64,000 bases of DNA. It comes from Sphingobacteriales bacterium. Lineage in GTDB: Bacteria > Bacteroidota > Bacteroidia > Chitinophagales > JADIYW01. The position numbers and the translations under genes are program-made. The stretch covers positions 1 to 64,000 of the forward strand of contig CANHGL010000009.1 of the NCBI GenBank assembly GCA_947460245.1, written 5' to 3'. The notes beneath the pieces were generated by a model. That model searched no databases. It was not told the DNA's origin and was given only the letters and a program-made list of their open reading frames with translations. Every line of letters begins with the position of its first letter. Position 1 is the stretch's first letter. Shown in pieces: positions 21,772-56,547 of the stretch.

Positions 21772-22236
21772 CTATTCCGGCTTAACGCCATATTTTCTAA
21801 TGAAATTTTCTTCAGCAGCATTATAAGCGATGTCAAATGGTTTTTCTTTGATGCTTATATCTTTGAATAGAGCCTGTATTTTTGATTTATATTCCTTATT
21901 GTCAAGGCTTGGATCTTCAACATAATTTAATAGTTGTTTGTATTGATTTTCAGATACACTTAAGAAGTAGGAGAATAAATTTACAGTAGCTTTTTTATAA
22001 TATTCTTCTTGGTTATAGGCAGGAGTACTGTCTAAAATGGCGATACTTTTTTTTATCTGAAAGTTCAGTATCCTGAGATTTAAATCAGAAACACTCGTTT
22101 TATAAACATATATTTCTTGTCCAATTTTAGCTTGCTCTTCTTTTATGGTTTTATAATACGCTGTTGCTTCAAAATTTCTTTGCCCATAGGTTAGTCCCGA
22201 AATATTTAAGAGCAATAAGAGTAGTGACCATTTCAT
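21772..22236 (-). CDS. Exported protein of unknown function
   Basis: A 154-aa protein with signal peptide MKWSLLLLLLNISGLTYGQ, then an all-helical, charged mature part without cysteines or a recognisable catalytic motif. The layout (two long helices, conserved aromatic positions) resembles small surface proteins of the LIC11966 type, but this is a weak guess. The box TATCTTTA ends exactly 4 nt before the ATG, so the message may be leaderless. It lies 42 nt downstream of a lipase gene on the same strand. Confidence 0.75.
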   Translation of the reverse strand: MKWSLLLLLLNISGLTYGQRNFEATAYYKTIKEEQAKIGQEIYVYKTSVSDLNLRILNFQIKKSIAILDSTPAYNQEEYYKKATVNLFSYFLSVSENQYKQLLNYVEDPSLDNKEYKSKIQALFKDISIKEKPFDIAYNAAEENFIRKYGVKPE

Positions 22237-22240
22237 AGAG

Positions 22241-22248
22241 TAAAGATA
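22241..22248 (-). promoter_or_regulatory. -7-like box 4 nt before ATG
   Basis: TATCTTTA (one mismatch to TAnnTTTG) is followed by CTCT and the ATG of the exported-protein gene. Spacing is identical to the boxes before the genes at 24912, 31439, 31521, 50842 and 56535. Confidence 0.4.
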
Positions 22249-22278
22249 TTAATTAAATTTAAAAATGGATTGTAGGGC

Positions 22279-23100
22279 TTAGTGCTTATTCTCTTTTAAG
22301 TCGTGTATTATATCTGCTATGAATTTTTTTGCGTCAAACTTTGGATTTCCAAAGAATTGTGTTAATCCTACCATATCAGCATGACTAACGGAACTTGCCT
22401 CATCGGATTGTATTAATCCTTTGTAATTTCCCCATTTACTGGATTCGATTCCTACCATACCGTCATTTTTTCCTTCATAGGGTCTAATCACATAGGCAAT
22501 CGTTCTCCATAATATATTTGGGTATTCTTTGTTTATATGACTGGCATAACTTTGATAATAGATTTGTTTGGAGTCTATTACTTCTTCATTGAATATTTTC
22601 ATAGCCTCTGTGGTAACTTGAAATACGGCCTTTAGGCTATCAGGTCTCTTATCGCCCATTATAGTTGCATATAGATTTACCAATCTTGCTGTAGCAAACT
22701 TAGGTAAGGGTAGCCGTCCTAAAATGATATCGGCAAGGTGAGTACCCCGATGCGGTGAACCCAATGTTGTAATACTTGAGATATGCTCCTCCATATCTAA
22801 TTTGCTTGCCATATATCTGGCTTCCAATCCACCTTTTGAATGACCTATAATGTTAATCTTTTCTTTCTTTGTTTTCTCAAGGATGTCTAATATCCTGTAT
22901 TTTAATTTGATTGCATTATCTGGTATAGAAATAAATGCTTCCTGATTTGCTGTATATACATCACAACCATGTTGTTTCAAATAATCAGGAATATTGGTCC
23001 AGTAATTCATTAATCGGTTCTGATCATGAAATCCTAATCCACTTACAAGAATTACAGGATATTTGGTATTACAATAGGATAGTGAAGTTGTGATATTCAT
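22279..23100 (-). CDS. Lipase family alpha/beta hydrolase
   Basis: A 273-aa triacylglycerol-lipase-like protein. PVILVSGLGFHDQNRLMNYW provides the oxyanion loop, IIGHSKGGLEARYM the nucleophile elbow (S88), TTLGSPHRGTHLAD is the conserved strand-turn after it, NDGMVGIESSKWG carries the acid, and SHADMVG the histidine. This matches bacterial family I lipases. No signal peptide is visible at the ATG start (MNITTSLSYCNTKYPVI), so it may be cytoplasmic or exported by another route. A small exported-protein gene follows. The 229-bp upstream gap, shared with the DAHP synthase gene, shows no clear -7 box for this gene. Confidence 0.85.
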   Translation of the reverse strand: MNITTSLSYCNTKYPVILVSGLGFHDQNRLMNYWTNIPDYLKQHGCDVYTANQEAFISIPDNAIKLKYRILDILEKTKKEKINIIGHSKGGLEARYMASKLDMEEHISSITTLGSPHRGTHLADIILGRLPLPKFATARLVNLYATIMGDKRPDSLKAVFQVTTEAMKIFNEEVIDSKQIYYQSYASHINKEYPNILWRTIAYVIRPYEGKNDGMVGIESSKWGNYKGLIQSDEASSVSHADMVGLTQFFGNPKFDAKKFIADIIHDLKENKH

Positions 23101-23296
23101 TTGCGTATTGATCTATTTTGCATTTAAATGAAAAATAGGTACTGCAATTTTAACATATGTAATTTAAAAAACAAATGATTTAGGGATATGTTAATGAATT
23201 AACTATCTATTAATGTGTATATTCTTTTCTATTGTATGATAAGATATATTATTAGATAAGTCAATACAGTATTAAAACTTTCATGCGGTTATTTTG

Positions 23297-23304
23297 TATT
23301 TTTG
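23297..23304 (+). promoter_or_regulatory. -7 box of DAHP synthase gene
   Basis: TATTTTTG is an exact TAnnTTTG match ending 25 nt before the ATG. No TTG is seen at the expected -33 distance. Confidence 0.45.
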
Positions 23305-23329
23305 ATTATATATTAGTTCTTATTAAAAA

Positions 23330-24421
23330 ATGAATAGTTTACAGATACTTCCTCTTCAAGACTGGGGTTTCAATTTTACCCGTCCCTTATTTATTTCTGG
23401 TCCATGCTCCTGTGAGTCTGAAGATCAGATGATGGAAACAGCGCTTCGTTTATCGGATAAAGGTATTCATTTATTACGGGCAGGTATTTGGAAGCCAAGA
23501 ACACGTCCTGGTATGTTTGAAGGTATAGGTAAAGATGGGTTATCTTGGCTCGTGAATGCCGGTAAACAAACTAATAAACCCACTTGCGTAGAGGTCGCTA
23601 CCGTTCAACATGTAGAGGATGCACTGGAAGCAGGAATAGATATTTTATGGATTGGTGCACGTACTACTGTAAATCCATTCTTTGTACAAGAAATTGCCTC
23701 AGCTCTTAAAGGTGTAGATATACCTGTTCTAGTAAAGAATCCTATTAACCCTGATTTGCAACTTTGGTTAGGCAGTATGGAGCGATTAAATGCAGCAGGA
23801 ATAACCAAACTAGGGGCAATCCATAGGGGGTTCTCTGTATATGAGAAATCGAGCTACAGGAATCTACCAATGTGGGAAATTCCCATTGAACTTCGTAGGC
23901 TTTATCCTCAGATGCCAATTATAGTAGATCCTTCTCATATATGTGGTTCCAGAGATTTAATTTATTCTGTTTCTCAAAAAGCGTTAGATCTTGATTTTGA
24001 TGGTTTGATGATCGAGTCACACAGAGATCCGGATAATGCTTGGAGTGATTCTGATCAACAGCTTACACCGGAACAACTAGGAGAAATCATCGCTTCTTTA
24101 GTTGTGAGAAGTAGTGCTGTGGATACCATGTTTGGAAATGAACTGGATATATGGAGGGCACAAATTGACCGCATCGATAATTATATGCTAGAGATAATGG
24201 CAGATCGTATGGGTATAGCCAGAAAGATTGGGGCGTTCAAACGCGATAATGGTATAACTATTTTGCAAACTAATCGTTGGGATGAAATCTTCAGAGATAG
24301 GATAAGCAAAGCAACAGAAAAAGAGCTTACCGTCGACTTCATCCGTGAACTTATGGAGGCAATTCATCAGGAATCTATTCGTCATCAGACAAAAATTATG
24401 AACAATATTTTAGCTGATTAG
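23330..24421 (+). CDS. aroG: Bifunctional DAHP synthase / chorismate mutase (type II)
   Basis: This joins the first step of the shikimate pathway and the branch to prephenate. Residues about 1-265 form a DAHP synthase of the AroF/KdsA-like class (SGPCSCESEDQ, KPRTRPGMFEG, CVEVATVQHVEDA, VDPSHICGSRDL, IESHRDPDNAWSDSDQQL). Residues about 270-363 are an AroQ-type chorismate mutase (IDRIDNYMLEIMADRMGIARKIGAFKRDNG). This domain order is common in Bacteroidota, where the mutase domain provides feedback control by prephenate. The gene stands alone with a -7 box upstream and a terminator-like hairpin downstream. Confidence 0.95.
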   Translation: MNSLQILPLQDWGFNFTRPLFISGPCSCESEDQMMETALRLSDKGIHLLRAGIWKPRTRPGMFEGIGKDGLSWLVNAGKQTNKPTCVEVATVQHVEDALEAGIDILWIGARTTVNPFFVQEIASALKGVDIPVLVKNPINPDLQLWLGSMERLNAAGITKLGAIHRGFSVYEKSSYRNLPMWEIPIELRRLYPQMPIIVDPSHICGSRDLIYSVSQKALDLDFDGLMIESHRDPDNAWSDSDQQLTPEQLGEIIASLVVRSSAVDTMFGNELDIWRAQIDRIDNYMLEIMADRMGIARKIGAFKRDNGITILQTNRWDEIFRDRISKATEKELTVDFIRELMEAIHQESIRHQTKIMNNILAD

Positions 24422-24440
24422 GACTTAATTTATTCAAATA

Positions 24441-24487
24441 GCTAATAATCAACACTTTGAAAATTTATTAAGTTGTTAGCTTTTTTT
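24441..24487 (+). terminator. Probable intrinsic terminator after DAHP synthase gene
   Basis: GCTAA...CAAC and GTTG/TTAGC can pair around an AT-rich loop, followed by seven T. The stem has a bulge, so it is imperfect, but it lies 20 nt after the stop codon in the right orientation. Confidence 0.6.
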
Positions 24488-24540
24488 ATATTTTCACGTG
24501 GGTCATTGGGAAAATATAGGCTTTTTACGGTATTGTTTAC

Positions 24541-24548
24541 TAAATTTG
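24541..24548 (+). promoter_or_regulatory. -7 box of the 68-aa protein gene
   Basis: TAAATTTG matches TAnnTTTG exactly and lies 34 nt before the ATG. No TTG is seen at the usual -33 spacing. Confidence 0.5.
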
Positions 24549-24582
24549 GTCTATTAGTATTTAATCATAAAAAACAATTAAA

Positions 24583-24789
24583 ATGGACAAAGCAAAAATG
24601 ATCAAGGCATACTGCCTTAAGACCAAGGAGAAAGATGTACCTATGCACGATGCGGTGATCACTAAAACTGCTAGAGGCGGTTATATGGCTACTGGAAATG
24701 ATGGTAAAGGAAATAAGATGGCAGCTATTATGGGTGAAGCTAAAGCTTTGCAAGCTATCGCTGATGGAGTAGCTAAGAAAGGATTCTAA
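24583..24789 (+). CDS. Small conserved-looking protein, unknown function (DUF5679-like?)
   Basis: A 68-aa soluble, lysine-rich protein (MDKAKMIKAYCLKTKEKDVPM..., ending AIADGVAKKGF). It forms a monocistronic unit with its own -7 box and a perfect terminator, which supports a real and probably well expressed gene. The start of the protein (KAYCLKTKEKDVPMHDAVITKTARGGYMATG) recalls the zinc-ribbon family DUF5679 (AYCxxCxxKxxMxDA...), but the second cysteine of each CxxC pair is missing and the C-terminal knuckle is replaced by GNDGKGNKMAAIMG. It would thus be a metal-free relative or an unrelated protein. No function is assigned. Confidence 0.8.
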   Translation: MDKAKMIKAYCLKTKEKDVPMHDAVITKTARGGYMATGNDGKGNKMAAIMGEAKALQAIADGVAKKGF

Positions 24790-24810
24790 TCTTATTTTTT
24801 TAGAAAGTAT

Positions 24811-24838
24811 AAGGTCAGCATGTTGCTGACCTTTTTTT
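24811..24838 (+). terminator. Intrinsic terminator after the 68-aa gene
   Basis: AAGGTCAGCA, loop TGT and TGCTGACCTT form a perfect 10-bp stem followed by T residues, 21 nt after the stop codon. This is a textbook Rho-independent terminator. Confidence 0.92.
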
Positions 24839-24899
24839 ATGAATTAACATTACTTTTTTACGAGATTGGCATTTTTTAATTCATTATGTCATGTTTTTC

Positions 24900-24907
24900 T
24901 ATTTTTG
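24900..24907 (+). promoter_or_regulatory. -7 box 4 nt before ATG of LprI-like gene
   Basis: TATTTTTG is an exact TAnnTTTG match, followed by TCTG and ATG at 24912. If used, the mRNA would be leaderless, and the upstream in-frame ATG at 24891 would not be transcribed. Confidence 0.45.
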
Positions 24908-24911
24908 TCTG

Positions 24912-25325
24912 ATGAAACAGATGTTTGTCTTAAGCTTTTTTTTATTATGCTTTATTTCATGCTTTGCGCAGGATGAGGATGATATTGTTACTGCTGTTCA
25001 GACTAACTTTAAAAGTTGTCAGCGTTTAAAAAAAGATTCTATTCCTTGTTTTAGATTCTATTATAATACATTAGACAGTCTGTTGCTATCGGTTTTCAGT
25101 AAGGTGAGTATTCAATTACCCGCAGGGGAAAAGGTAGCGCTCTTAAAAGATCAGATAAGCTGGAATGTTAAAAGAGAGATATACTTTAAAAAACAAGATG
25201 AAAATTTTGTTTATAATTTAAAAGAGGGTACCTGGGCTAAGGATATGATACGATTTGTGTATGAGGATAAAGCAGATTTTATTTTAAAGAGAATTCAGTC
25301 GTTGCAAAAACGGCTTAAACCTTAA
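24912..25325 (+). CDS. Exported protein, LprI-like (lysozyme-inhibitor fold)?
   Basis: The mature protein is about 117 aa after a signal peptide MKQMFVLSFFLLCFISCFAQ. I start at 24912 rather than at the track's 24891, because MKQ... gives a normal signal peptide and a -7 box overlaps the upstream region. The pattern of two cysteines early, then YYNTLDSLLLSVF and LKDQISWNVKREIYF, recalls LprI/DUF1311 proteins (AQRxWxxYRDxxC), some of which inhibit lysozyme, but the final cysteine is absent. The assignment is tentative. The gene lies between two monocistronic units. Confidence 0.7.
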   Translation: MKQMFVLSFFLLCFISCFAQDEDDIVTAVQTNFKSCQRLKKDSIPCFRFYYNTLDSLLLSVFSKVSIQLPAGEKVALLKDQISWNVKREIYFKKQDENFVYNLKEGTWAKDMIRFVYEDKADFILKRIQSLQKRLKP

Positions 25326-25379
25326 TAACCTTGATTATTTTTATTTTTATAGGTATTATTATAACAATCCAGTACTTAA

Positions 25380-25410
25380 TTTGTAATTAAGGTATCATTT
25401 TCTAACTTTG
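25380..25410 (+). promoter_or_regulatory. Promoter of ferredoxin gene (TTTG-N19-TAACTTTG)
   Basis: TTTG at 25380-25383 and TAACTTTG at 25403-25410 are 19 nt apart, a complete match to the consensus. The predicted start is near 25416, about 11 nt before the ATG. Confidence 0.78.
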
Positions 25411-25426
25411 ACTAATAATCGTTTAT

Positions 25427-25708
25427 ATGGGATACTCAGTTAAAATTATATTAGATGGCAACAGTCATGAGATAACTGTAAATGAAGGGGAAACTATTCT
25501 TGAGGCGGCTATTAATGCTGAGTTAGATCCTCCTTACGCTTGTAGAGTGGCTGCTTGTTGTAGTTGTAAAGCGAAGTTATTAGAAGGTAAAGTAAATATG
25601 GATGATGATGAGCCGCTTACGGAAGAGGAGATAGAAGAAGGATTTATTTTAACTTGTCAGTCCCACCCAGTAACAGAGCATTGTGTAATTAGTTACGATG
25701 AAGGCTAA
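25427..25708 (+). CDS. 2Fe-2S ferredoxin
   Basis: A 93-aa plant-type [2Fe-2S] ferredoxin. The cluster cysteines are in PPYACRVAACCSCKAKLLEG, with the fourth in FILTCQSHP. The beta-grasp fold is preceded by EGETILEAAINAELDPPYAC. It resembles the ferredoxin domain at the C-terminus of phenylacetyl-CoA epoxidase reductase (PaaE), but here it stands alone. Its redox partner is not in the neighbourhood. It has a consensus promoter with a very short leader. Its last 20 bp overlap the convergent metallo-hydrolase gene. Confidence 0.93.
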   Translation: MGYSVKIILDGNSHEITVNEGETILEAAINAELDPPYACRVAACCSCKAKLLEGKVNMDDDEPLTEEEIEEGFILTCQSHPVTEHCVISYDEG

Positions 25709-26684
25709 ATTGCTCACCTACCTTAAGTATTCTTAGGTCGCCCTTAATAATCTCTTCTTTTTTGAATTGTTCCAATAATCGTATTGGTTCTGACGCTGGT
25801 TCATCACTAAGATCAAAAGTTCCGTAGTGCATTGGAATAAAAATCTTACCATTTAGCTCATGAAATCCTTGTATTGCTTCTTCAGGGGAGATATGCGCCC
25901 ACTCCATTACATATCTTGGTTTATAGGCGCCAACAGGCATTAGGCAAATATCAAATTGAGAGAAGTGTGTATTTATTTCTTTAAAATGAGTACTCATTCC
26001 TGTATCACCAGCAAAATAGATACTATGTTCTTTTCCTATTATTGAAAAGCTTCCCCAAAGTGTTCTGTTATAATCTGTCAATAATCTTCTATTCCAGTGT
26101 TTGGCAGGTAGGAATGTTATAGATAAATCTTTTGTCTTAAATTCTTGCCACCATGCGGCCTCTTGTATATTATTAAATCCAATTGACTGTAACATAGATT
26201 CAAATCCAAGTGGACATAGTATCTCCACGTTTGGATTCTTTCTACGTAATTTCTTTAAGGTTGGAACATCAAAATGATCTCTGTGTCCATGGGATAATAG
26301 GATGTAATCTATAGACTCAAATTCGTGAATTGCACAAGGTAGCTGATGCTTTCTTCTCAAAAATGGAGTAAGGTCATGAAAGACCGGATCTGTGAGGATT
26401 CTTTTTCCATCGATTTGTGCAAAGAATGAAGAATGCCCCAGCCAAACTAAAATATCTTTCTTTGAATTTAAAAAGTCACTATTGTAAATCACTTCGGGTG
26501 TAAACCTGTCATTTCTTTTTTCGCTACGCTGCGGATTAGAGCTTGTCATCCACTTAATCAATCGTGTATAAGGTAGCCTGTCTTTTTCTGTATTGAACAC
26601 AAACTCTTCATCTATACATAGATTTCCCTGTATATCTTTTTTTATAAAGGGTAAGTTTGAATTGTATTTGTATTCTCTATTCAT
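25689..26684 (-). CDS. MBL-fold metallo-hydrolase (UlaG/NAPE-PLD-like)
   Basis: A 331-aa metallo-beta-lactamase-fold protein with the metal site LLSHGHRDHFD (HxHxDH), AKHWNRR, FAGDTGMSTHF and the final MHYGTFDLSDEP. Together with VWLGHSSFFAQIDGKRILTDPVF this fits the group that includes N-acyl-phosphatidylethanolamine phospholipase D and UlaG. The substrate is unknown, with a phospholipid-type ester possible. No signal peptide is seen. The ATG follows directly after the T tract of the terminator that ends the OmpA gene, so how this gene is transcribed is unclear. Confidence 0.88.
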   Translation of the reverse strand: MNREYKYNSNLPFIKKDIQGNLCIDEEFVFNTEKDRLPYTRLIKWMTSSNPQRSEKRNDRFTPEVIYNSDFLNSKKDILVWLGHSSFFAQIDGKRILTDPVFHDLTPFLRRKHQLPCAIHEFESIDYILLSHGHRDHFDVPTLKKLRRKNPNVEILCPLGFESMLQSIGFNNIQEAAWWQEFKTKDLSITFLPAKHWNRRLLTDYNRTLWGSFSIIGKEHSIYFAGDTGMSTHFKEINTHFSQFDICLMPVGAYKPRYVMEWAHISPEEAIQGFHELNGKIFIPMHYGTFDLSDEPASEPIRLLEQFKKEEIIKGDLRILKVGEQFSLHRN

Positions 26685-26717
26685 AAAAAAAAGCCTGTTA
26701 GAATCTAACAGGCTTTT
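26685..26717 (-). terminator. Intrinsic terminator after OmpA gene, abutting next start codon
   Basis: On the minus strand AAAAGCCTGTTAGA and TCTAACAGGCTTTT form a long perfect stem with a minimal loop followed by a run of T, 20 nt after the OmpA stop. The T run is directly followed by the ATG of the MBL gene. Confidence 0.9.
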
Positions 26718-26736
26718 GAAGTATTAGTTCAGTAAA

Positions 26737-28335: not shown

Positions 28336-28353
28336 TCGGTTTTTGATTTGCGG

Positions 28354-28384
28354 TAAAAGTACAAAATGTTGATTAAATAACCAA
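28354..28384 (-). promoter_or_regulatory. Promoter of OmpA-family gene
   Basis: On the minus strand TTG (28384-28382), 20 nt, then TACTTTTA (28361-28354), one mismatch from TAnnTTTG. The box ends 18 nt before the chosen ATG, which supports that start over the longer reading frame. Confidence 0.65.
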
Positions 28385-28404
28385 TAATACATGAAAATTA
28401 ATGA

Positions 28405-29640: not shown

Positions 29641-29666
29641 GATTTGAGTTTAAATAAAACAGTTCG

Positions 29667-29686
29667 TTTGGATTCGTCCATCCAAA
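29667..29686. promoter_or_regulatory. Inverted repeat at MFS gene start region, possible operator
   Basis: TTTGGAT and ATCCAAA are perfect inverted 7-mers separated by 6 nt, 27-46 bp before the MFS ATG and immediately downstream of TATTTTGG on the minus strand. The position at or just after the predicted transcription start fits a repressor site. Confidence 0.45.
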
Positions 29687-29735
29687 ATACAAAATAAAGC
29701 GTGATTACCTTATTTTATGGCTAGCGCATGAAGTA

Positions 29736-30773: not shown

Positions 30774-31439
30774 TTAATTCAGGAAATCTTGCATAGCCAT
30801 GTAAGTTTCTTCTGCATGTAAATTTAAGCAAAAATGTCCGCCATTTATTTGGATATAATGCTGGTCGGGTGCTGCTACTACTCTGTCTTTTTTATCATGT
30901 ATTCTTAGAGGGTTAGGTAGGTCAGAGTGAATATAATCTTCCATATTCATTTCCATCATTAACCCTAGCTGGATATTAGAAAAATTTTTGAAATTATCCA
31001 TTACAGCCATCTGAATATTTTTATAGTTTTCATCTTTTATTTTATTCAACAAGAAATTTTTAAGAAAATTTGTTTTTAGCATACCACTGAGTGCAGCAAT
31101 TTGAGTAGCTCTTGGGAATTGTGGTAGAATATGAATGAGTTTTCCGGGATCGCTGAAGGAGGCAATCATACAAATCTCAGAACCTATTATTTCCCTAATT
31201 TGAAAAGAGAAATAACCACCCATTGAGTGGCCTATTAATTTATCGTTTTCCTGAATATTATAGTGTGTAATTAACTGTCTGCAAAATTGATTACGGGAGA
31301 TGAAAGGAAATGAAAATTTATGGAGAACAGGTCTGTAGTCGACGGTTATCAATTCGTAGTTTTTTAAGTATTGGGTGAGTTCCCTGAAACAAAAAGAATC
31401 TTCTCCAAAACCGGGTAACAAAAATAGTTTCTTTCTCAT
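30774..31439 (-). CDS. Alpha/beta hydrolase (small, esterase/thioesterase-like)
   Basis: A 221-aa minimal alpha/beta hydrolase. The N-terminus KKLFLLPGFGEDSFCF gives the oxyanion loop, LIGHSMGGYFSF the nucleophile elbow (S72), RIHDKKDRVVAAPD the acid, and INGGHFCLNL the histidine. No signal peptide is present. It heads a two-gene unit with the fatty acid desaturase, suggesting a role in handling an acyl ester, which is inference. TAATTTTG ends 4 nt before the ATG, predicting a leaderless message. It is divergent from the agmatine deiminase gene over 81 bp. Confidence 0.85.
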   Translation of the reverse strand: MRKKLFLLPGFGEDSFCFRELTQYLKNYELITVDYRPVLHKFSFPFISRNQFCRQLITHYNIQENDKLIGHSMGGYFSFQIREIIGSEICMIASFSDPGKLIHILPQFPRATQIAALSGMLKTNFLKNFLLNKIKDENYKNIQMAVMDNFKNFSNIQLGLMMEMNMEDYIHSDLPNPLRIHDKKDRVVAAPDQHYIQINGGHFCLNLHAEETYMAMQDFLN

Positions 31440-31443
31440 TTTT

Positions 31444-31451
31444 CAAAATTA
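31444..31451 (-). promoter_or_regulatory. -7 box 4 nt before ATG of hydrolase gene
   Basis: TAATTTTG on the minus strand (exact TAnnTTTG) is followed by AAAA and ATG. No clear TTG is present at -33. Confidence 0.45.
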
Positions 31452-31508
31452 GCAGACTTTTATGGTTTTTGTTACTTAAAACATAGTTTTAATCTGTATC
31501 AAATACTT

Positions 31509-31516
31509 TACTTTTG
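31509..31516 (+). promoter_or_regulatory. -7 box 4 nt before ATG of agmatine deiminase
   Basis: TACTTTTG is an exact TAnnTTTG match followed by C, as in the extended consensus. After CACT comes the ATG. The -33 element is not obvious. Predicted transcription starts at the start codon. Confidence 0.5.
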
Positions 31517-31520
31517 CACT

Positions 31521-32588
31521 ATGAAGGACATACATTTACCGGCAGAATGGGCACCGCAAGATTTAATACAAGTTGCATTTCCCAGTATGGATTCAGATTG
31601 GAAGAACTATTGGGATCAGGTAATACCTTGTTATGTAAATATCTTAAAGGTTATAGCTTCTTATCAGCCTGTTTTGGTAGTATGTAATGATGCGGATGCA
31701 GTTCGTTACTATCTGAAGGATATAAACTCTTCAGCTATTTTTTTGGTAGAAGTTCCAATCAATGATACATGGACGAGAGACTATGGTGCTATTACTATTC
31801 AAACTAAAGAGGGTTTCAGGATTTCAGATTTCATATTCAATGGATGGGGGAATAAGTTTGTAGCTGATAAAGACGATAAAGTAAGTAGTTTTCTTTTTGA
31901 TCTAGGCATTTTCAATACTTCAGATTATAAGCAGATAGATTTGGTTTTGGAAGGAGGAAGTATAGAAAGTGATGGTCGCGGCACTTTGCTTACCACTACT
32001 AATTGTTTGCTCACAACTACCCGTAATCCTCACTTAAGCCAACAGCAGATAGAGGAGAAACTAAAAAATACTTTTGGTTTAGATAGCGTTTTGTGGTTGG
32101 AGAATGGTCATCTGGAAGGCGACGATACAGATGCACATGTTGACACTTTAGCTCGTTTCTGCGATGCAGATTCTATTGCATACGTTCAATGTGCAGATGT
32201 TAACGATGCTCATTACATAGGTTTGAAAAAGATGGAAGAGGAGTTGAAACAATTTAAAACATTGTCAGGTCAGTTCTATCGTTTAATTCCCCTGCCAATG
32301 GCAGAACCTGTTTTTGCCCCAGATGATGGACGCAGATTGCCTGCTACTTATGCCAATTTTTTAATCATGAATGAAGTGGTTTTATTGCCTGTATACAATT
32401 GTTCTTCTGATATATTGGCGCTTCAGCAAGTTCAAAAAGCATTTCCTAATAAAAAAATAGAATCTGTAGATTGCAGTGCATTGATTTTACAGCACGGTTC
32501 TTTGCATTGTATGACGATGCAATTTCCTAAAGGAAGTATTAACTGGGATGTACTGCGTAAATTTTCATTAGATTCATATTTACCTTAG
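31521..32588 (+). CDS. aguA: Agmatine deiminase
   Basis: This hydrolyses agmatine to N-carbamoylputrescine and ammonia. The 355-aa protein has the guanidino-modifying fold: NDTWTRDYGAI near residue 87, VLEGGSIESDGRGTLLTT, the catalytic ENGHLEGDDTDAHVDTLARF and the nucleophile cysteine in QHGSLHCMTMQ close to the C-terminus. The gene directly precedes the amidase for the next step, 36 nt apart, so the pair forms a putrescine operon. Agmatine supply (arginine decarboxylase) is not encoded here. The start region suggests a leaderless transcript. Confidence 0.95.
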   Translation: MKDIHLPAEWAPQDLIQVAFPSMDSDWKNYWDQVIPCYVNILKVIASYQPVLVVCNDADAVRYYLKDINSSAIFLVEVPINDTWTRDYGAITIQTKEGFRISDFIFNGWGNKFVADKDDKVSSFLFDLGIFNTSDYKQIDLVLEGGSIESDGRGTLLTTTNCLLTTTRNPHLSQQQIEEKLKNTFGLDSVLWLENGHLEGDDTDAHVDTLARFCDADSIAYVQCADVNDAHYIGLKKMEEELKQFKTLSGQFYRLIPLPMAEPVFAPDDGRRLPATYANFLIMNEVVLLPVYNCSSDILALQQVQKAFPNKKIESVDCSALILQHGSLHCMTMQFPKGSINWDVLRKFSLDSYLP

Positions 32589-38826: not shown

Positions 38827-38827
38827 G

Positions 38828-42192: not shown

Positions 42193-43380
42193 TTGCTAAA
42201 GCGAAAAATTTTCAATGACCCAGTTTACGGATTTATCTCTATTCCGTATGATATTGTTTTTGATGTTATTGAGCATCCTTATTTTCAACGATTAAGACGC
42301 ATTCAGCAATTGGGTTTAAGTTCCTTGGTTTATCCCGGAGCTACACACTCGAGATTCCATCATTCCTTAGGTGCCATGCATTTAATGTATAGAAGCCTTG
42401 AAGTTTTAAAATCAAAAGGTCATGAGATTACTGAAGACGAATCACAGGCTGCGGTATTGGCGATATTAATGCACGACTTAGGGCATGGTCCTTTTTCACA
42501 TTCTCTGGAAGGTGTTTTATTGGATGGTGTTCATCATGAACATATTTCTATGTCTCTGATGAGCAGCCTACAGGATATTTTTGGTGCACCTATAACAAAG
42601 GCAATTTCAATTTTTACCAATCAATATCCTAAAAAATTCCTACACCAGCTTGTTAGTGGCCAGTTAGATATGGATAGATTGGATTATTTGAACAGAGATT
42701 CATTCTATACTGGTGTTAGTGAGGGGGTAATTGGTTACGATCGTATCATTAATATGTTGGATGTTTATGATGGTAATATTGTTGTGGAAGAAAAAGGTAT
42801 TTATTCAATAGAGAAATTTATTGTTGCTAGAAGGCTGATGTATTGGCAGGTATATTTACATAAAACAGGTCTTGTTGCAGATTTGATGTTGAAGAATGCT
42901 ATTCTGCGTGCTAAAACACTGGATGCAAAATTTCATATAGGAGTTTCAGAGCCCTTGCAATACTTCTTGTTGAATAATATCTCTTCTGATGATTTTACTG
43001 ATAGTCTTAATATTTTTACCATGTTAGATGATCATGACATCATGCAAGCCTTGAAAATATGGATGAGGAGTGAAGATTCTATTTTAAAGACGCTTTCTAC
43101 TGCTATCATTAACAGGAATTTATTTAAGATGGAATTTCTCACAGAACAACAGGTATTAGAAAAATATAAGTTGATGGAAGATAAATATAATAGTGTTGAG
43201 CTTCAGTTTCTCGTTTTGAAAGGTGTTGCCCAGAATAATGCCTATAATCCGGAGAAGGATAATATCTATATCAGATTTAAGGATGGCAGTATAAAAGAGA
43301 TTACAGATATCACTGAGCAGTGGAATATCCGCTCACTTACTAATCCGGTAATCAGGCATTATATTGCTTACCAAAAATAG
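42193..43380 (+). CDS. HD-superfamily phosphohydrolase (dNTPase-like)
   Basis: A 395-aa HD-domain protein. HSRFHHSLGAMHLM and ILMHDLGHGPFSHSLEG supply the metal-binding histidines and the HD pair, and DMDRLDYLNRDSFYTG the downstream aspartate, as in SAMHD1-like dNTP triphosphohydrolases and related YdhJ-type proteins. The substrate is unproved. Translation must start at TTG (MLKRKIFNDPVYGFISIP), which matches the conserved start of homologues; no ATG lies upstream in frame near it. It precedes lpxD by 9 nt and thus leads the lipid A operon. Confidence 0.88.
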   Translation: MLKRKIFNDPVYGFISIPYDIVFDVIEHPYFQRLRRIQQLGLSSLVYPGATHSRFHHSLGAMHLMYRSLEVLKSKGHEITEDESQAAVLAILMHDLGHGPFSHSLEGVLLDGVHHEHISMSLMSSLQDIFGAPITKAISIFTNQYPKKFLHQLVSGQLDMDRLDYLNRDSFYTGVSEGVIGYDRIINMLDVYDGNIVVEEKGIYSIEKFIVARRLMYWQVYLHKTGLVADLMLKNAILRAKTLDAKFHIGVSEPLQYFLLNNISSDDFTDSLNIFTMLDDHDIMQALKIWMRSEDSILKTLSTAIINRNLFKMEFLTEQQVLEKYKLMEDKYNSVELQFLVLKGVAQNNAYNPEKDNIYIRFKDGSIKEITDITEQWNIRSLTNPVIRHYIAYQK

Positions 43381-43389
43381 TTTTAGGAA

Positions 43390-49869: not shown

Positions 49870-49936
49870 AATTCAGCGTTATCTGTTTTGTACAGCTTGC
49901 TAAAATACAAAATACAAGACGATTTATTGTTAATTA

Positions 49937-50842
49937 TCAATTATCAATGGATATTGGCTCGACGGTATAACCCTCTTTTCTGAGGAGTTGTATAAGCCCA
50001 TCTTTACCTCCCAGGTGTCCGGCTCCAACAGCGATAAAACATGTCTTACTATTTATTAATGCCTTAACCTTAGGAATCCAATTGGTATTTCTGTTTTTGA
50101 TAAGATTATCTGTCTGAGTTATATCTTCCTCGTCTTCAAATGATTTCATCAATGCATTTAGATCCTGGTTTCTATAATCTTTAATAAGTTGATCTAATTT
50201 TTGAGTTTCGGAAGTATAATTTTTAATAGTTTCCACCATGCTTTTTAGCTGACTTTCTATTGGTATTCCTTCCAGGAATTTTAGCTGCTCTTCAAAAGTT
50301 TCTAATCCAACTATAGAGATGGTATTGTTTTGTGCAATTTTAGTAAGGTTTTCTTCATAGGATTCCTTGGCATCATGCATGTAACGAAAAAAGATAAGCT
50401 GTTCCAGGTAAAATGGTTTAAGCTTGCAATAGGCTATATCAAAGGTGTAAGGTTTTATGCCAATAGAATCAACCATAAATGTTCTTAGAATTACAAAGTC
50501 ACTATCGCTCATGAAATCTTTTACTGATTTACTGGAGTCCAGTAAGCTGAGTTTAGTTACAGCTGATACATCAATATTATTGATATCCATTTCCATCACC
50601 AATGCCTTGGATTTTTCGAGTTTTTTTTGAGTATTCTTTCCCAGGTGATAGCTGTCTGCATTGATGATGTGTATGGTTCCAAAAAGATAAGATGGTTGTG
50701 CCAGGTCGTTTCCTGAAATTTGCCAAAGTAATGAGTTCTCTGTTTTTAAGGGAGTATCTAACACTATTTGATTTTCAGTATTTTTAGGCGGTCTGAAACC
50801 AAAAAATAGACAGAGTACTGTAGTATAAAGTATATATTTCAT
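49937..50842 (-). CDS. TraB/GumN family exported protein
   Basis: A 301-aa protein of the TraB/PrgY/GumN family, thought to be a metal-dependent protease-like fold; the cellular role in bacteria is unclear. I start at 50842 (MKYILYTTVLCLFFGF, signal peptide) instead of 20 codons upstream, which lie inside a terminator hairpin. The motifs are WQISGNDLAQPSYLFGTIHI (first GxxH), the central E/R region and ACFIAVGAGHLGGKDGLIQLLRKEGYTVEPI at the end. The start codon follows a terminator and a TATTTTTA box 4 nt away. Confidence 0.88.
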   Translation of the reverse strand: MKYILYTTVLCLFFGFRPPKNTENQIVLDTPLKTENSLLWQISGNDLAQPSYLFGTIHIINADSYHLGKNTQKKLEKSKALVMEMDINNIDVSAVTKLSLLDSSKSVKDFMSDSDFVILRTFMVDSIGIKPYTFDIAYCKLKPFYLEQLIFFRYMHDAKESYEENLTKIAQNNTISIVGLETFEEQLKFLEGIPIESQLKSMVETIKNYTSETQKLDQLIKDYRNQDLNALMKSFEDEEDITQTDNLIKNRNTNWIPKVKALINSKTCFIAVGAGHLGGKDGLIQLLRKEGYTVEPISIDN

Positions 50843-50846
50843 GCTA

Positions 50847-50854
50847 TAAAAATA
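50847..50854 (-). promoter_or_regulatory. -7-like box 4 nt before ATG of TraB/GumN gene
   Basis: TATTTTTA (one mismatch to TAnnTTTG) is followed by TAGC and ATG. It lies in the T-rich tail of the preceding terminator. Confidence 0.4.
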
Positions 50855-50884
50855 AAAAGAGTTGTATGGAATACAACTCTTTTT
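50847..50884 (-). terminator. Intrinsic terminator after the thioredoxin pair
   Basis: AAAAAGAGTTGTAT and ATACAACTCTTTTT form a perfect 14-bp stem around a 3-nt loop, and on the minus strand they are followed by TTTTTATTTTTA. It lies 23 nt after the stop of the second thioredoxin gene. Confidence 0.9.
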
Positions 50885-50907
50885 ATTGATTTTTAGTAGC
50901 ATTTGTA

Positions 50908-51501
50908 TTATTCAGGTGCTATCCATGGAGTAGCTCTGCCTGATTTATAGCTTTGTTTATACGCTTCAAAGTTTTTACCCTTAGATGGCATCCAGAAATC
51001 CTGTGCAACATAAGTTATGACAGGTTCAAATTGCGGAGGGGAAAGATAGCCCTTCAGCGGAGTAATCAATTCATATTTTGGGGAGAGAATACACATTGTA
51101 GGATAGGAGAGTTCATTCTGCATGAAATAAGCAGCTAATTGATGATAACCACTTCTGCCACCTGGAACAAAGGTCCATGTTCTACCTTGAAATTCTATAT
51201 TGTCTTTTCGCTCTGCATCAAATTTTACACAATAGAAATCTTTGCTCATTAATTCACCTACATAATCATCGCCAAATGTATTTCTATCCATCACTTTACA
51301 CCAGCCACACCAGGAGGTATAGAAATCTATAAATATTTTTTTTGGAGTAACTTCATTTAGCTTAACCATTTCTTCCCAGCTCAACCATTTTATTTTACCT
51401 TCTTTCTCTATATCTGATTCAATAGGAGGGCCTGCTTTTAACATCATAAAAGGGCTTAGAACCAGTAATAGTGAAAGAATATATTTCGTATAAGATTTCA
51501 T
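50908..51501 (-). CDS. Exported thioredoxin-family protein, copy 2
   Basis: A 197-aa exported thioredoxin-fold protein. I start at 51501 (MKSYTKYILSLLLVLSPFMMLKA, a signal peptide); the track's longer version overlaps the preceding gene. The active site is FYTSWCGWCKVMDRNTF, the DUF255/thioredoxin_7-like CGWC form found in periplasmic thiol proteins. YPTMCILSPKYE provides the cis-proline. It is 10 nt downstream of a homologue with the same layout (50-60 residues before CGWC, GxR...HQLA motif), so the two are a tandem duplication that has diverged. Partners are unknown. Confidence 0.88.
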   Translation of the reverse strand: MKSYTKYILSLLLVLSPFMMLKAGPPIESDIEKEGKIKWLSWEEMVKLNEVTPKKIFIDFYTSWCGWCKVMDRNTFGDDYVGELMSKDFYCVKFDAERKDNIEFQGRTWTFVPGGRSGYHQLAAYFMQNELSYPTMCILSPKYELITPLKGYLSPPQFEPVITYVAQDFWMPSKGKNFEAYKQSYKSGRATPWIAPE

Positions 51502-51511
51502 AGTTACTCTT

Positions 51512-52066
51512 TTATTGACCAGATTCATATTGTTGAAAATCCATATTTTTATAGCTTCCAGTCTGAAAATATTTTAAAATAGCAGTCATAGTTTCTACAT
51601 CTTTATATCCCGGAAAAGTTTCTAATTTATTTCCGTTGGCATCCAAAACAACAAGTGTCGGATAGCCTAATTTACCGCCAATACCGCCTAATTCTAGTGC
51701 TAATTGGTGGGTACCTCTAGGGCCCGATTTCAAAAATGAATAACTCTTGCCATTAAAAACTATGGGATTTTGTTGTTCGGCATTAAATTTTACGGCAGTA
51801 AAATTGGCATTTATCAAGCTCACTATGCTAGCTTCTGTATAAGTGCCTTCATCCATTTTTTTACACCACCCACACCAATCAGTGTATAAGTCAACTAAAA
51901 TGAATTTTTTGTTCGAAGACTTTGTTTCAGCGATAGACTGATCTATGTTTACCCAGTTGATCTGACCTTCCGGAACGTTACTCAGTTGGGTAGCAGCAGT
52001 AATTGTATTATTACTAATCGAAAGAATAATTACAAACAATAAAAATAGAGTATGAATTCTGGTCAT
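51512..52066 (-). CDS. Exported thioredoxin-family protein, copy 1
   Basis: A 184-aa thioredoxin-fold protein with a signal peptide (MTRIHTLFLLFVIILSISNNTITAA). The redox motif is LYTDWCGWCKKMDEGTY, the cis-proline lies in KLGYPTLVVLDANG, and SGPRGTHQLALELGG parallels GGRSGYHQLAAYF in the next gene. It probably acts as a periplasmic disulfide reductase or chaperone for cysteine proteins, but no client can be named. It leads the pair and has a full promoter with an approximately 52-nt leader. Confidence 0.88.
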   Translation of the reverse strand: MTRIHTLFLLFVIILSISNNTITAATQLSNVPEGQINWVNIDQSIAETKSSNKKFILVDLYTDWCGWCKKMDEGTYTEASIVSLINANFTAVKFNAEQQNPIVFNGKSYSFLKSGPRGTHQLALELGGIGGKLGYPTLVVLDANGNKLETFPGYKDVETMTAILKYFQTGSYKNMDFQQYESGQ

Positions 52067-52123
52067 GGTCAGTTTTTTATATTAGGGCATAACTTTATAA
52101 CAGCAAAGTTGTTAGTATAATAT

Positions 52124-52153
52124 CAAATTTAATACCAATTGTAAATTTAGCAA
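52124..52153 (-). promoter_or_regulatory. Promoter of the thioredoxin pair (TTG-N19-TAAATTTG)
   Basis: On the minus strand TTG (52153-52151), 19 nt, then TAAATTTG (52131-52124): a perfect consensus match. The predicted start is near 52118. Confidence 0.75.
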
Positions 52154-52241
52154 TTATGATTAACTTTATCCTTATTATAATTTATTGATTTACTTTGCTT
52201 TATATTTATAACGCTATATTTTTTTAAAATTTTAAGATTGC

Positions 52242-52805
52242 ATGAAAAGGAAAATTATTGTTTCAATTACAGGTGCCAGTGGTGCTGTTTATGCAAAAGT
52301 ATTGTTAGATAAGTTGTTGAAGGTAAAAGATCAACTGGATAGTGTTGGTGTTGTAATGTCTGATAATGCCAAAGATGTCTGGAAATATGAGTTAGGGAAT
52401 GAGGATTATACTAATTATCCATTTCAGACATATTCTAAGAATGATTTTTTTGCCCCCTTTGCTTCCGGTAGTGCCAAATACGATACCATGATCATTTGTC
52501 CTTGTTCTATGGGTACATTGGGTAGGATTGCATCTGGTATTTCCAATGATCTTACTACGAGAGCTGCGGATGTAATTTTGAAAGAAAGAAGAAAATTAGT
52601 ACTAGTAGTTAGAGATACTCCCTACAATCTTATTCATATTAACAATATGAAACTCATTACTGAAGCCGGAGGTATTATATGTCCAGCATCTCCAAGCTTT
52701 TATAGTAAACCTCAGACCTTTGAACAAATTGCTTCAACAGTAATTGACAGGGTTATTGATTTATGTGGATTAGATCACAGTGATACGTATAGATGGAGCG
52801 AGTAA
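52242..52805 (+). CDS. ubiX: UbiX-family flavin prenyltransferase
   Basis: A 187-aa flavoprotein that makes the prenylated FMN cofactor for UbiD-type decarboxylases. SITGASGAVYAKVLLDKLL binds FMN, and ICPCSMGTLGRIASGISNDLTTRAADVILKERRKLVLVVRDTPYN is the family signature. Length is normal. No ubiD lies beside it, so its client is elsewhere. Divergent from the thioredoxin pair over 175 bp and convergent with the next gene with 1 nt between stops. Confidence 0.95.
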   Translation: MKRKIIVSITGASGAVYAKVLLDKLLKVKDQLDSVGVVMSDNAKDVWKYELGNEDYTNYPFQTYSKNDFFAPFASGSAKYDTMIICPCSMGTLGRIASGISNDLTTRAADVILKERRKLVLVVRDTPYNLIHINNMKLITEAGGIICPASPSFYSKPQTFEQIASTVIDRVIDLCGLDHSDTYRWSE

Positions 52806-52806
52806 T

Positions 52807-54384
52807 TCAGGGTGTCTTATAGACATCAAAATACTGACTTTCTTTATCTTTTTTATAGTGTTTCTTTACGTATTGTAAAATCAGGTAATTCATTCCTCCG
52901 TTTTCTAATGGCTTAAATCCATCTTTCAATAATGCAGTTTGATATTTAGGCACAGCAATCCTTACATCTTTCAATTGTATTAATTTATTGATTACTTTAT
53001 TTAATATTGGTTCAGTTGGAATCTCTGCTCCGTTATGCCATTCTGTTAGTAATGGACCATCTTGATTGTGTAAGATATTGGATGCTGTAAAATCGGGTAA
53101 TACAACCAGTGCTGGATTGATTTCCTTTAAGGAGTCCAGTTCTATTAAAACATCATATGTATTTTTATTGGTATAAATTCCATTTGCACCTTGTACTACT
53201 CCATCTAATTTATAAGTAAGTTTTTGGATAGGTGCGTCTCTATAGATGTGTTGTGTTCGTGCATAAAATGATGCAGTGATAATTAGTAAGCATCCAGCCA
53301 ACCAAAACTTTGTTTTTATAGATTCATCTAATATTTTAATTATTATCATTAGACTAAAATAAGAGCCTAGGAATAAAGCTGGTGTGTTATAGCCTACAGA
53401 GATTGAAACTGACCACATTAAGATGAGACATACCCATAACGTTTGTGTTGGTCTTTTTTTAGTTTGTATAAATTCACTAATTAATAGTCCGACAAATAAA
53501 AAGCTCATAGAGCCGTGGTAATGTTCAGTTATTAAAAGTGCTACTAAAAGTGCGAGTATAAATCCGATGTATAGTATTGAGTTTATTTTTAGTCTATTGC
53601 AAAGTACTCCCAATGCTATACCAGGTAAGAAGAAGCTATGTAGTAAGTATTCCTTTATGCCAACTTCAAATAATTCATGATGACTGCTAAGCTGTAAACT
53701 TAAATCTGTCCATCCACCATAGTAGCTTATAATAGCAACATAGATTGCTATTGGTAGTATGCCCATGAAACTATTTAGGATATAGTTTTTTTGCTTAATT
53801 AATAGTAAGGTTGCGGGAATTAGTATTACGTAGTTTTGTTTACACAATGCGGCATATCCAATAAATAGAAATCCAAGAGATGAATATTTTTTCTTTGATG
53901 TTATTAGGTTTAAGCCTAACATTATAAAAAGTAATCCATCTATTGTATGCAATACAGAGCATGGGAAATAGTGAATGTTTAACAGAAATGTACAGAAAAC
54001 CAGACCGTAAAAAAAACTCCATTTAAGTTTGCCATCTATGAATACTGCACTATCATTTTTTAGAGGGATGGTCATGCGCTCTAACCATCTAACCCATAAG
54101 TAAGCGATACATAAGTTTTCCAACCAAAAAACAAATCTGGAGATTAAGAAAAAATAGTCTTTCGAGAGGAGTAGTTCGGGGATATGTATAAATGCATATC
54201 CTAAAGGTCTTAAAGAAGAAAAATCAAGATGAGGAATTTGCCCATGCAGGAGTCTGTTGGAGGAGGATAATACAAAACCTTCATCCGTAGGATTAAATCC
54301 ATATTTCGAAAGTAGTACATGGCAAAGCATAGAGGAGAGCAGCAGAAACAGGATATCCGTTAGTACCGTTCTTTTTAGTTGCAT
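52807..54384 (-). CDS. Polytopic membrane protein, probable GT-C glycosyltransferase
   Basis: A 525-aa protein with about ten membrane helices and a C-terminal soluble part (from about 400). The first external loop reads NPTDEGFVLSSSNRLLHGQIPHLDFSS, which matches the D-E...G.xPHxDF pattern of GT-C enzymes (PMT/ArnT-like) that use polyprenyl-phosphate sugars. No closer family can be named and the substrate is unknown. Codon usage looks like that of the neighbours. It follows the FKBP gene after 10 nt. Confidence 0.75.
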   Translation of the reverse strand: MQLKRTVLTDILFLLLSSMLCHVLLSKYGFNPTDEGFVLSSSNRLLHGQIPHLDFSSLRPLGYAFIHIPELLLSKDYFFLISRFVFWLENLCIAYLWVRWLERMTIPLKNDSAVFIDGKLKWSFFYGLVFCTFLLNIHYFPCSVLHTIDGLLFIMLGLNLITSKKKYSSLGFLFIGYAALCKQNYVILIPATLLLIKQKNYILNSFMGILPIAIYVAIISYYGGWTDLSLQLSSHHELFEVGIKEYLLHSFFLPGIALGVLCNRLKINSILYIGFILALLVALLITEHYHGSMSFLFVGLLISEFIQTKKRPTQTLWVCLILMWSVSISVGYNTPALFLGSYFSLMIIIKILDESIKTKFWLAGCLLIITASFYARTQHIYRDAPIQKLTYKLDGVVQGANGIYTNKNTYDVLIELDSLKEINPALVVLPDFTASNILHNQDGPLLTEWHNGAEIPTEPILNKVINKLIQLKDVRIAVPKYQTALLKDGFKPLENGGMNYLILQYVKKHYKKDKESQYFDVYKTP

Positions 54385-54394
54385 AGGTAGAATG

Positions 54395-54865
54395 CTATTG
54401 GAAGTTTACCAGTTCCACATCAAATATCAATACCGTATTTCCAGGAACGGAAGCAAATCCATTAGCTCCATAGCCCAATGCAGATGGAATAAGTAATGTG
54501 ATTTTACCGCCTTTTTTGATCAGTGGTATACCTTCTTTCCAGCCTTGTATAACATTCTTTAGTAAAAAGCTGGCTGTTGTACCAGATGTTTGATCGAACA
54601 CTACGCCATTGGTATAAAATCCTTTATAATAAACAGTTACAAATGAATTTACATTAGGTGCATTTCCGATGCCAGAGTCCGTTATTACATAATAGAGCCC
54701 GGAAGCTGAAGAGTCTGCTGTTAGCCCTTTATCGCGAATATATTGTTGTATAATTTCCTTGTCAATTTTAGCTTGGTCGACTGTACTTGTTTTTTTACAA
54801 GAGAGTATAGTAGCTGTAATTATTAGTAGTAGGCTTATTAGTTTTATTAATCTTTTTTTATGCAT
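54395..54865 (-). CDS. FKBP-type peptidyl-prolyl isomerase lipoprotein
   Basis: A 156-aa lipoprotein with a type II signal (lipobox TILSC, lipidated C23) and a single FKBP domain from about residue 60 (VTVYYKGFYTNGVVFDQT, VIQGWKEGIPLIKKGGKITLLIPSALGYGANGF, LIFDVELVNF). It accelerates proline isomerisation during folding of envelope proteins. The hydrophobic pocket residues appear intact. It is cotranscribed with the following membrane protein gene and lies 41 nt after the acyl-CoA carboxylase gene. Confidence 0.93.
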   Translation of the reverse strand: MHKKRLIKLISLLLIITATILSCKKTSTVDQAKIDKEIIQQYIRDKGLTADSSASGLYYVITDSGIGNAPNVNSFVTVYYKGFYTNGVVFDQTSGTTASFLLKNVIQGWKEGIPLIKKGGKITLLIPSALGYGANGFASVPGNTVLIFDVELVNFQ

Positions 54866-54906
54866 TTTATTTTATTAGTTCGGTAAGTAATTTAGTATGT
54901 AGTAAG

Positions 54907-56535
54907 TTAAGTTTGTAAAACACCAACATTAAACTTTTCAATCGGGGCATTGTTTGCAGCTTCAATACCCAATGATATCCATTTTCTTGTTTCCAATGGA
55001 TCTATAACAGCATCTACCCACAAGCGAGCAGCTGCATAATATGGGGTAGTAGTTTTAAAATAACTATCTCTGATATCTTTTAATATTTTCTCTTTCTCTT
55101 CTTCTGTGATTTGTTTGCCTTTAGCTTCCAAAGCACCTACTTGTATTTGTAAGATAGTGCTGGCTGCCTGATCTCCACCCATCACGGCCATTTTAGCCCC
55201 CGGCCATGCGATAATGAGTCTTGGGTCGTATGCTTTTCCACACATAGCATAATTTCCTGCACCATAGGAATTTCCTGTTATGACTGTGAATTTTGGAACA
55301 GTTGAATTAGATACTGCATTCACTAGTTTTGCTCCGTCTTTAATGATTCCATTGTTTTCAGATCTACTGCCTACCATGAATCCAGTTACATCCTGCAGAA
55401 ATAATAGAGGTATTTTTTTCTGATTACAAAGCATGACGAAGCGTGCCGCTTTATCGGCACTATCTGAGTATATAACGCCACCTATTTGTACTTCACCTTT
55501 TTTATTTTTCACTACAGAACGTTGGTTGGCAACAATACCTACACTCCATCCGTCAAGGCGAGCATAAGCACACACAATAGTCTGACCATAATCTTCTTTA
55601 TATTCTGTGAATTCAGAATCATCTACCAAGCGTTTAATAATTTCACGAACATCATAAGGTTTTGCAGTTGCCATGGTATAGATACCGTAGATATCTTTAT
55701 CGGCTGACTTAGGCTTTTTAGATTTAATTCTGTCAAAGCCGGCTTGTTCATTTTTTCCGTACTTATTCATCAACTGCTTGATGGTGTCAAGTGCTTCTTT
55801 ATCGTCTTTCACTTTATAGTCGCATACACCACTAAGCGCAGTTTGCGTTTCAGCACCACCCAGCGTTTCTTTATCTACATTTTCACCGATAGCAGCTTTT
55901 ACCAGATAGGGGCCTGCTAAAAATATACTTCCTGTTCCTTCTACAATAATGCTTTCATCACTCATAATAGGAAGATATGCTCCACCTGCTACACAACTTC
56001 CCATAATGGCAGCAATTTGTGGGATACCCATAGAAGACATCTTTGCATTATTTCTAAAAATACGTCCAAAGTTTTCTTTGTCTGGAAAAATTTCATCTTG
56101 CATAGGCAGAAAAACGCCTGCACTATCAACAAGGTAGATTACAGGCAACCGATTTTCCATAGCAATTTCCTGTGCCCGTAAATTTTTCTTTCCAGTGATT
56201 GGGAACCATGCACCAGCTTTTACAGTGGCATCATTTGCAACAATTACACATTGACGTCCGGATACATACCCTATAACGACAACCACACCACCACTCGGAC
56301 AACCTCCTTGCTCTTTATACATTTCATCGCCTGTCAGTGCACCTATTTCTATAAAGTTGGTATTTTTATCTAATAGATAGTCGATGCGTTCTCTTGCAGT
56401 AAGTTTACCCTTTTTGTGTTCGGAATCGATTTTTTTCTGTCCGCCACCCAGGTAAACATTTTCTAATTTGGCCTTAAGTACATCTACAGCAAGGCGCATT
56501 TTATCTTCATTGAGGTTGAAATCAATATCTGTCAT
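54907..56535 (-). CDS. Acyl-CoA carboxylase beta subunit (carboxyltransferase; methylcrotonyl/propionyl-CoA type)
   Basis: A 542-aa biotin-dependent carboxyltransferase subunit. The two carboxyltransferase halves carry VYLVDSAGVFLPMQDEIFPD, AIMGSCVAGGAYLPIMSDE, FLAGPYLVKAAIGENV and then LFLQDVTGFMVGSRSENNGIIKDGAKLV, ITGNSYGAGNYAMCGKAYDPRLIIAWPGAKMAVMGG. The GSCxAGGAYxP motif points to 3-methylcrotonyl-CoA carboxylase beta rather than acetyl-CoA carboxylase. No biotin carboxylase or biotin carrier gene is adjacent. TACTTTTA ends 4 nt before the ATG. Confidence 0.92.
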   Translation of the reverse strand: MTDIDFNLNEDKMRLAVDVLKAKLENVYLGGGQKKIDSEHKKGKLTARERIDYLLDKNTNFIEIGALTGDEMYKEQGGCPSGGVVVVIGYVSGRQCVIVANDATVKAGAWFPITGKKNLRAQEIAMENRLPVIYLVDSAGVFLPMQDEIFPDKENFGRIFRNNAKMSSMGIPQIAAIMGSCVAGGAYLPIMSDESIIVEGTGSIFLAGPYLVKAAIGENVDKETLGGAETQTALSGVCDYKVKDDKEALDTIKQLMNKYGKNEQAGFDRIKSKKPKSADKDIYGIYTMATAKPYDVREIIKRLVDDSEFTEYKEDYGQTIVCAYARLDGWSVGIVANQRSVVKNKKGEVQIGGVIYSDSADKAARFVMLCNQKKIPLLFLQDVTGFMVGSRSENNGIIKDGAKLVNAVSNSTVPKFTVITGNSYGAGNYAMCGKAYDPRLIIAWPGAKMAVMGGDQAASTILQIQVGALEAKGKQITEEEKEKILKDIRDSYFKTTTPYYAAARLWVDAVIDPLETRKWISLGIEAANNAPIEKFNVGVLQT

Positions 56536-56539
56536 GGTA

Positions 56540-56547
56540 TAAAAGTA
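56540..56547 (-). promoter_or_regulatory. -7-like box 4 nt before ATG of acyl-CoA carboxylase gene
   Basis: TACTTTTA (one mismatch to TAnnTTTG) then TACC and ATG on the minus strand. It is divergent from the SRP RNA promoter, about 70 bp away. Confidence 0.4.

Follow-up and report, generated by a model that had tools for sequence, protein, structure and literature searches.

Leaderless mRNAs are already known in Bacteroidota, and the gene starts described here are of a known kind. The mapped promoters of Flavobacterium johnsoniae carry TAHHTTTG, with no G at the nn positions, and the RNA starts 4 or 5 nt past the box; the -33 element is weak, and 87% of the predicted transcripts have leaders longer than 10 nt (PMC6847099). 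5' UTRs under 10 nt accounted for 3.7% in Bacteroides thetaiotaomicron, where the leaderless examples named were transposases, sensor kinases and transporters (PMC7366714), and leaderless or near-leaderless mRNAs accounted for 5.5% in Flavobacterium psychrophilum (PMC9723704). Leaderless mRNAs were reported as rare in this phylum, and surveys of Pribnow-like motifs nearly missed such genes. TA-led genes were found in 1 of 37 Bacteroidetes/Chlorobi genomes by Zheng et al. (2011), whose analysis could detect only Pribnow-like boxes and who warned of underestimation (PMC3160421). Nakagawa et al. proposed that either leaderless mRNA or S1 lies behind the upstream biases of Bacteroidetes, and the two were not separable there (PMC5397173), and gene-start programs class the group with AT-rich non-canonical ribosome binding sites (PMC9581028). 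A fixed box exactly 4 nt before the start codon across the class was not reported in the literature searched.

The locus studied here was a window (the whole stretch of 64,000 nt analysed) on contig C9 of a 2.21 Mb genome of 85 contigs (G000) from an uncultured Bacteroidota bacterium. In its initial annotation, a -7-like box, TAnnTTT(G/A), had been noticed 4 nt before the ATG of six genes, and leaderless mRNAs had been predicted from it. As judged from sequence, the enrichment of this arrangement in the genus, its conservation, and a peak at the same distance in most of the Bacteroidia genomes surveyed are new.

Distance between the box and the start codon

Gene-level counts were obtained from 40 stretches (800 kb, 36% of G000) together with the window, which gave 864 kb and 716 usable genes. 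Gene starts were our own calls from coding potential, with the upstream sequence left out of the calling. The gap was the number of nucleotides between the end of the 8-nt box and the start codon, and the null for the gap counts was given by dinucleotide shuffles of the upstream regions in 200 runs. The count by distance that the initial annotation had suggested gave a sharp peak at gap 4. TAnnTTT(G/A) was located exactly 4 nt 5' of the ATG in 39 of the 716 genes (40 with one more gene), with 32 of these lying beyond the window, whereas 2.4 ± 1.5 such genes were expected from the shuffles, with a maximum of 8, and 4.4 from a null that kept the base frequencies at each position. The gap-4 pattern is real, chance is excluded, and the sequence rule holds for about one gene per 15–20 in the G000 sample. 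The peak was unchanged when the first ATG was used in place of the best-scoring ATG. Moreover, a model-free count over the whole of G000 gave 176 occurrences of TAHHTTTR-N4-ATG and 79 of the N10 version. Within the window, the earlier estimate that far fewer than one such gene would arise by chance was correct (~0.19 genes expected among 55; Poisson P ~5e-8, post hoc), and the base composition assumed for it, 0.36 each for A and T, has to be corrected to 0.30 for A and 0.35 for T.

Only 9 genes had the box at gap 3 and 9 at gap 5, against 39 at gap 4. Gaps 3, 5 and 6 were likewise enriched in the G000 sample, and a broad second hump at gaps 15–23 corresponded to the normal leadered class. Gaps 7–14, for which leaders of ~3–10 nt would be predicted, were near background in this sample. 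The genes of G000 thus look, from the box positions, to be either leaderless or provided with leaders of at least ~11 nt.

Conservation was evaluated in eight genomes of the genus (G000–G007). For 181 reciprocal-best pairs between G000 and G005, a box at gap 3–6 was kept in 10 of 13 genes (~1.4 expected, P 3e-9), and the position of the box was retained in orthologues despite diverged flanks. Net of background, a box at gap 3–6 was present in ~7.7% of genes in G000, 6.3% and 9.2% in two congeners, 3.3% in a sister genus, 0–2.3% in three other families of the order and 1.6% across 77 loci of diverse named Bacteroidota; these percentages are motif counts, and the samples of the relatives were small, with 133–173 genes each. 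The 77 loci also had a sharp gap-4 peak (22 vs 4.3). Among first genes, gap 3–6 accounted for ~20–26% of the box-like promoters recognisable within 60 nt, a rough estimate resting on the subtraction of reverse-strand counts. In the model-free count, gap 4 exceeded gap 10 in 61 of 62 genomes of the same order or class, and by more than 2 SD in 51; the excess per Mb placed G000 second among the 62. By motif counts, this arrangement occurs widely in the class, is strong in this genus and is not unique to it. The ratio of gap 4 to gap 10 was higher still, 3.3–4.9, in other Bacteroidota (G079, G153, G083, G072, G216 and family f44).

Sites in the window and their orthologues

The boxes and gaps named for the window were all found where they had been placed, and are listed in Table 1. 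The list of six gap-4 genes held and was incomplete, as a further match before 43390 had been missed. This match is probably due to chance, because it has a G at an n position and the same-strand upstream gene is only 9 nt away.

Table 1. Positions of the -7-like boxes in the window and the genes that follow them.
Box	Position	Strand	Gap (nt)	ATG	Gene or product	Span
TATCTTTA	22241..22248	-	4	22236	LIC11966-like surface protein	21772-22236
TATTTTTG	24900..24907	+	4	24912	137-aa protein, no family	24912-25325
TAATTTTG	31444..31451	-	4	31439	alpha/beta-hydrolase-like protein	30774-31439
TACTTTTG	31509..31516	+	4	31521	PAD_porph/agmatine-deiminase-like protein	31521-32588
TAGTTTTA	43378..43385	+	4	43390	extra match
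TATTTTTA	50847..50854	-	4	50842	TraB/PrgY/gumN protein	49937-50842
TACTTTTA	56540..56547	-	4	56535	acyl-CoA carboxyltransferase subunit	54907-56535
TATCTTTG	56637..56644	+			SRP RNA promoter box (calibration)	Rfam RF04183 match 56643-56748
TACCTTTG	61464..61471	-	5	61458	PLP-dependent cysteine/cysteate-synthase-like protein	60475-61458

Comparison with relatives gave good support to five predicted leaderless genes: 31439, 31521, 24912 and 56535 at gap 4, and 61458 at gap 5. For 31521, the exact box was at gap 3–4 in six of seven congeners, with proteins ~60–64% identical and dissimilar flanks; the orthologue in another genus of the family was leadered, with the box at gap 16. The exact box of 31439 was at gap 3–4 in four of seven congeners, and a one-mismatch box was at gap 4 in the other three. 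The gene at 56535 had gap 4 in five of six congeners and gap 5 in the sixth, with ~25 nt in another genus, and the sole clear orthologue of 24912 (in G006) had TATTTTTG at gap 3. Gap 5 was found for 61458 in seven of the eight genus genomes and gap 6 in the remaining one, although the flanks had diverged. The pair 31439/31521 is divergent, and in the common 81-bp intergenic region (31440–31520) each gene has a box of its own that faces outwards and ends 4 nt before the ATG. Within the genus, the two boxes are for the most part conserved.

The other genes named in the initial annotation fared less well. The gene at 22236 looks leaderless in this species only, since its promoter was kept in relatives but 13–14 nt before the ATG. 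The weakest of the six was 50842, which is ambiguous: gap 4 was found in two of seven congeners (G001 and G006), and the box was missing in the other five. The tamB-like gene, which begins with TTG and had been offered as a further leaderless case, was dropped, because TTG codons carry the box at background rate only (1/280).

That some of the named sites are not promoters at all, with 50842 being a terminator tail and 43390 a coincidence, is close to an even question and leans slightly towards the negative. The preceding gene has a terminator-like hairpin (fold -20 kcal/mol) whose U-tract overlaps the box of 50842, and the absence of this box from five of seven congeners points the same way, as do the G and the operon-internal position of 43390. 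However, a gene that follows a terminator needs its own promoter, and the gap of 4 nt recurs at the 50842 orthologue in two congeners. A terminator-like T-run held the -7 box in 3 of the 39 gap-4 genes (window 50847–50900, minus strand; C3 near 42153, plus strand; C6 near 51686, plus strand). In these three genes the terminator tail and the next promoter appear to be fused, as the box lies inside the T-run of the preceding gene.

Probable promoter and predicted start of transcription

The TAHHTTTR sites are very probably -7 elements of the housekeeping sigma factor that give leaderless mRNA from the ATG. According to the proposed mechanism, the Bacteroidota housekeeping sigma factor would bind TAHHTTTR as its -7 element, the RNA would begin on the A of the ATG or within one base of it, giving an mRNA with no leader, and the 5'-terminal AUG would be read directly by ribosomes charged with fMet-tRNA (70S, or 30S with IF2). 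This translation route is inferred. Peak, base preferences, operon position, use of ATG only and conservation in the genus agreed with the leaderless reading of the initial annotation, for which the 5' ends are predicted.

The alternative raised there was a T-rich element that enhances translation in leadered mRNA, for example by binding S1 or by reducing structure. AT-rich upstream signals of this kind have been described for Bacteroidota genes. Such an element should need neither the TA nor the terminal G/A, should leave G as frequent as elsewhere at the nn positions, should be used equally inside operons, should tolerate changes in the flanking bases and should keep a constant distance from the ATG in orthologues; none of this was seen. 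Altering any of the six fixed positions, the TA and terminal G/A included, or the inner spacing abolished the gap-4 peak in the 864-kb sample. The last base was G in 16 and A in 23 of the 39 gap-4 sites, and G occurred at 1 of 78 nn positions (P 0.0007). T/A-rich, G-poor blocks near -16 and -28 were common to the gap-4 and leadered promoters of G000. The site was rare inside operons (4/193 internal genes vs 30/421 first genes, P 0.012), and its distance from the ATG shifted in orthologues. Furthermore, the box replaced an upstream box and did not accompany one: a second box within ~70 nt upstream was found for 5 of 30 gap-4 genes vs 175 of 391 others (P 0.003), a difference partly due to the context mix of the genes. 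The box preceded 41 of 850 ATG codons, 2 of 94 GTG codons, 1 of 280 TTG codons and 44 of 15325 for all other codons. These base preferences, upstream blocks, avoidance of operon interiors, lack of a second box and restriction to ATG argue for a promoter, and a T-rich ribosome element is very improbable. For one class of genes, promoter and translation-signal readings are now, on sequence features, told apart. Leaderless genes were no different from the rest in RNA structure over the first 40 nt, and a clear TTG peak of the -33 TTTG element was absent upstream of both leaderless and leadered boxes in the G000 sample.

The SRP RNA gene of the window served as calibration. Its core, GGGCAAG, starts 5 nt after the box, and not 6 nt as had been thought; the core was 4–5 nt after the box in nine genomes where it was readable. 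The start of the Rfam match falls inside the box, so 56643 is not a mapped 5' end and the gene is weakened as an exact ruler of the start site. If the RNA is unprocessed there, the spacing of 4–5 nt is an upper bound. The Rfam family, Bacteroidales_small_SRP, matched strongly in this apparently non-Bacteroidales genus and in 13 of 13 genomes searched, and its name is therefore too narrow. A membership in Bacteroidales, hinted at by that name, was unsupported; the nearest named genomes were MAGs labelled Chitinophagales or Bacteroidota/Bacteroidetes. Together with the spacing of 4–5 nt in Flavobacterium, from which we also infer the exact 5' end, the SRP spacing puts +1 on the A of the ATG at gap 4. 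Transcription of the gap-4 genes should hence start at this A or within one base of it, and some messages may be longer by a single base or begin a base further on.

Some points weigh against the leaderless promoter reading. The spacing varies by one base, and with the box at gap 4 a spacing of 5 nt would cost the message the A of its AUG. The published consensus ends in G, unlike the more frequent A here. The -33 element was not evident, although it was weak in F. johnsoniae as well, and the gene starts are our own calls. The variable spacing leads to a further reading, in which the promoter is true and the start lies a few bases off, giving near-leaderless, mixed starts with 1–3 nt leaders or some 5'-truncated AUG. 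The published choice of 4 or 5 nt, the enrichment at neighbouring gaps and the fixed gap 5 of 61458 speak for it, but the sharp excess at gap 4 indicates that one spacing dominates, and such mixed starts are unlikely, though well short of negligible.

Many of the gap-4 genes have housekeeping functions. By Pfam match the set includes Fur, DivIC, FtsK, RecF/SMC-like, LptC, PheS and GltX, as well as GTP cyclohydrolase I, methylmalonyl-CoA mutase and aromatic amino acid lyase. We suggest, with somewhat less than even confidence, that Bacteroidota use leaderless initiation as a major mode, conserved and tuned by lineage, which would cover perhaps a quarter of the sigma-A-type promoters of the genus, essential genes included (FtsK, PheS, GltX, RecF, LptC), and that the -7 box makes up part of what has been described as the AT-rich ribosome binding site in this phylum. 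The sequestered anti-Shine-Dalgarno sequence of Bacteroidota ribosomes may have eased the use of leaderless mRNA. The 16S rRNA, sought for this sequence, gave no RF00177 match in G000 and nine relatives and is probably missing from the MAGs. Since the gap-4 peak is sharp and conserved, it provides a sequence rule that predicts leaderless genes in any Bacteroidota genome and corrects start-codon annotation. The leaderless share differs between lineages, and whether ribosomes with hidden anti-Shine-Dalgarno sequences lean more on leaderless initiation is now testable.

Comparison with described promoters and leaderless genes

The closest described system is the Sigma-ABfr promoter (-7 TAnnTTTG/TAHHTTTG, weak -33). 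The gap-4 sites share its box, with TA, TTT, fixed inner spacing and nn free of G, as well as AT-rich upstream blocks; terminal A was accepted besides G and used about as often. The RNA of Sigma-ABfr promoters starts 4–5 nt past the box, and the same spacing is assumed here, whereas the box in the present genes is placed for a start at the ATG.

The leaderless mRNAs of B. thetaiotaomicron and F. psychrophilum belong to the same phylum and promoter type and were measured by TSS mapping. Those described here are predicted only, are conserved in the genus and make up roughly 20–26% of box promoters near first genes. Moreover, the gap-4 set includes many housekeeping genes, unlike the examples named in B. 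thetaiotaomicron. Zheng et al. (2011) described TA-led leaderless genes in Actinobacteria and Deinococcus-Thermus, in which a promoter box likewise stands at a fixed, short distance before the start codon, but that box is Pribnow-like and lies further from the start than the box described here.
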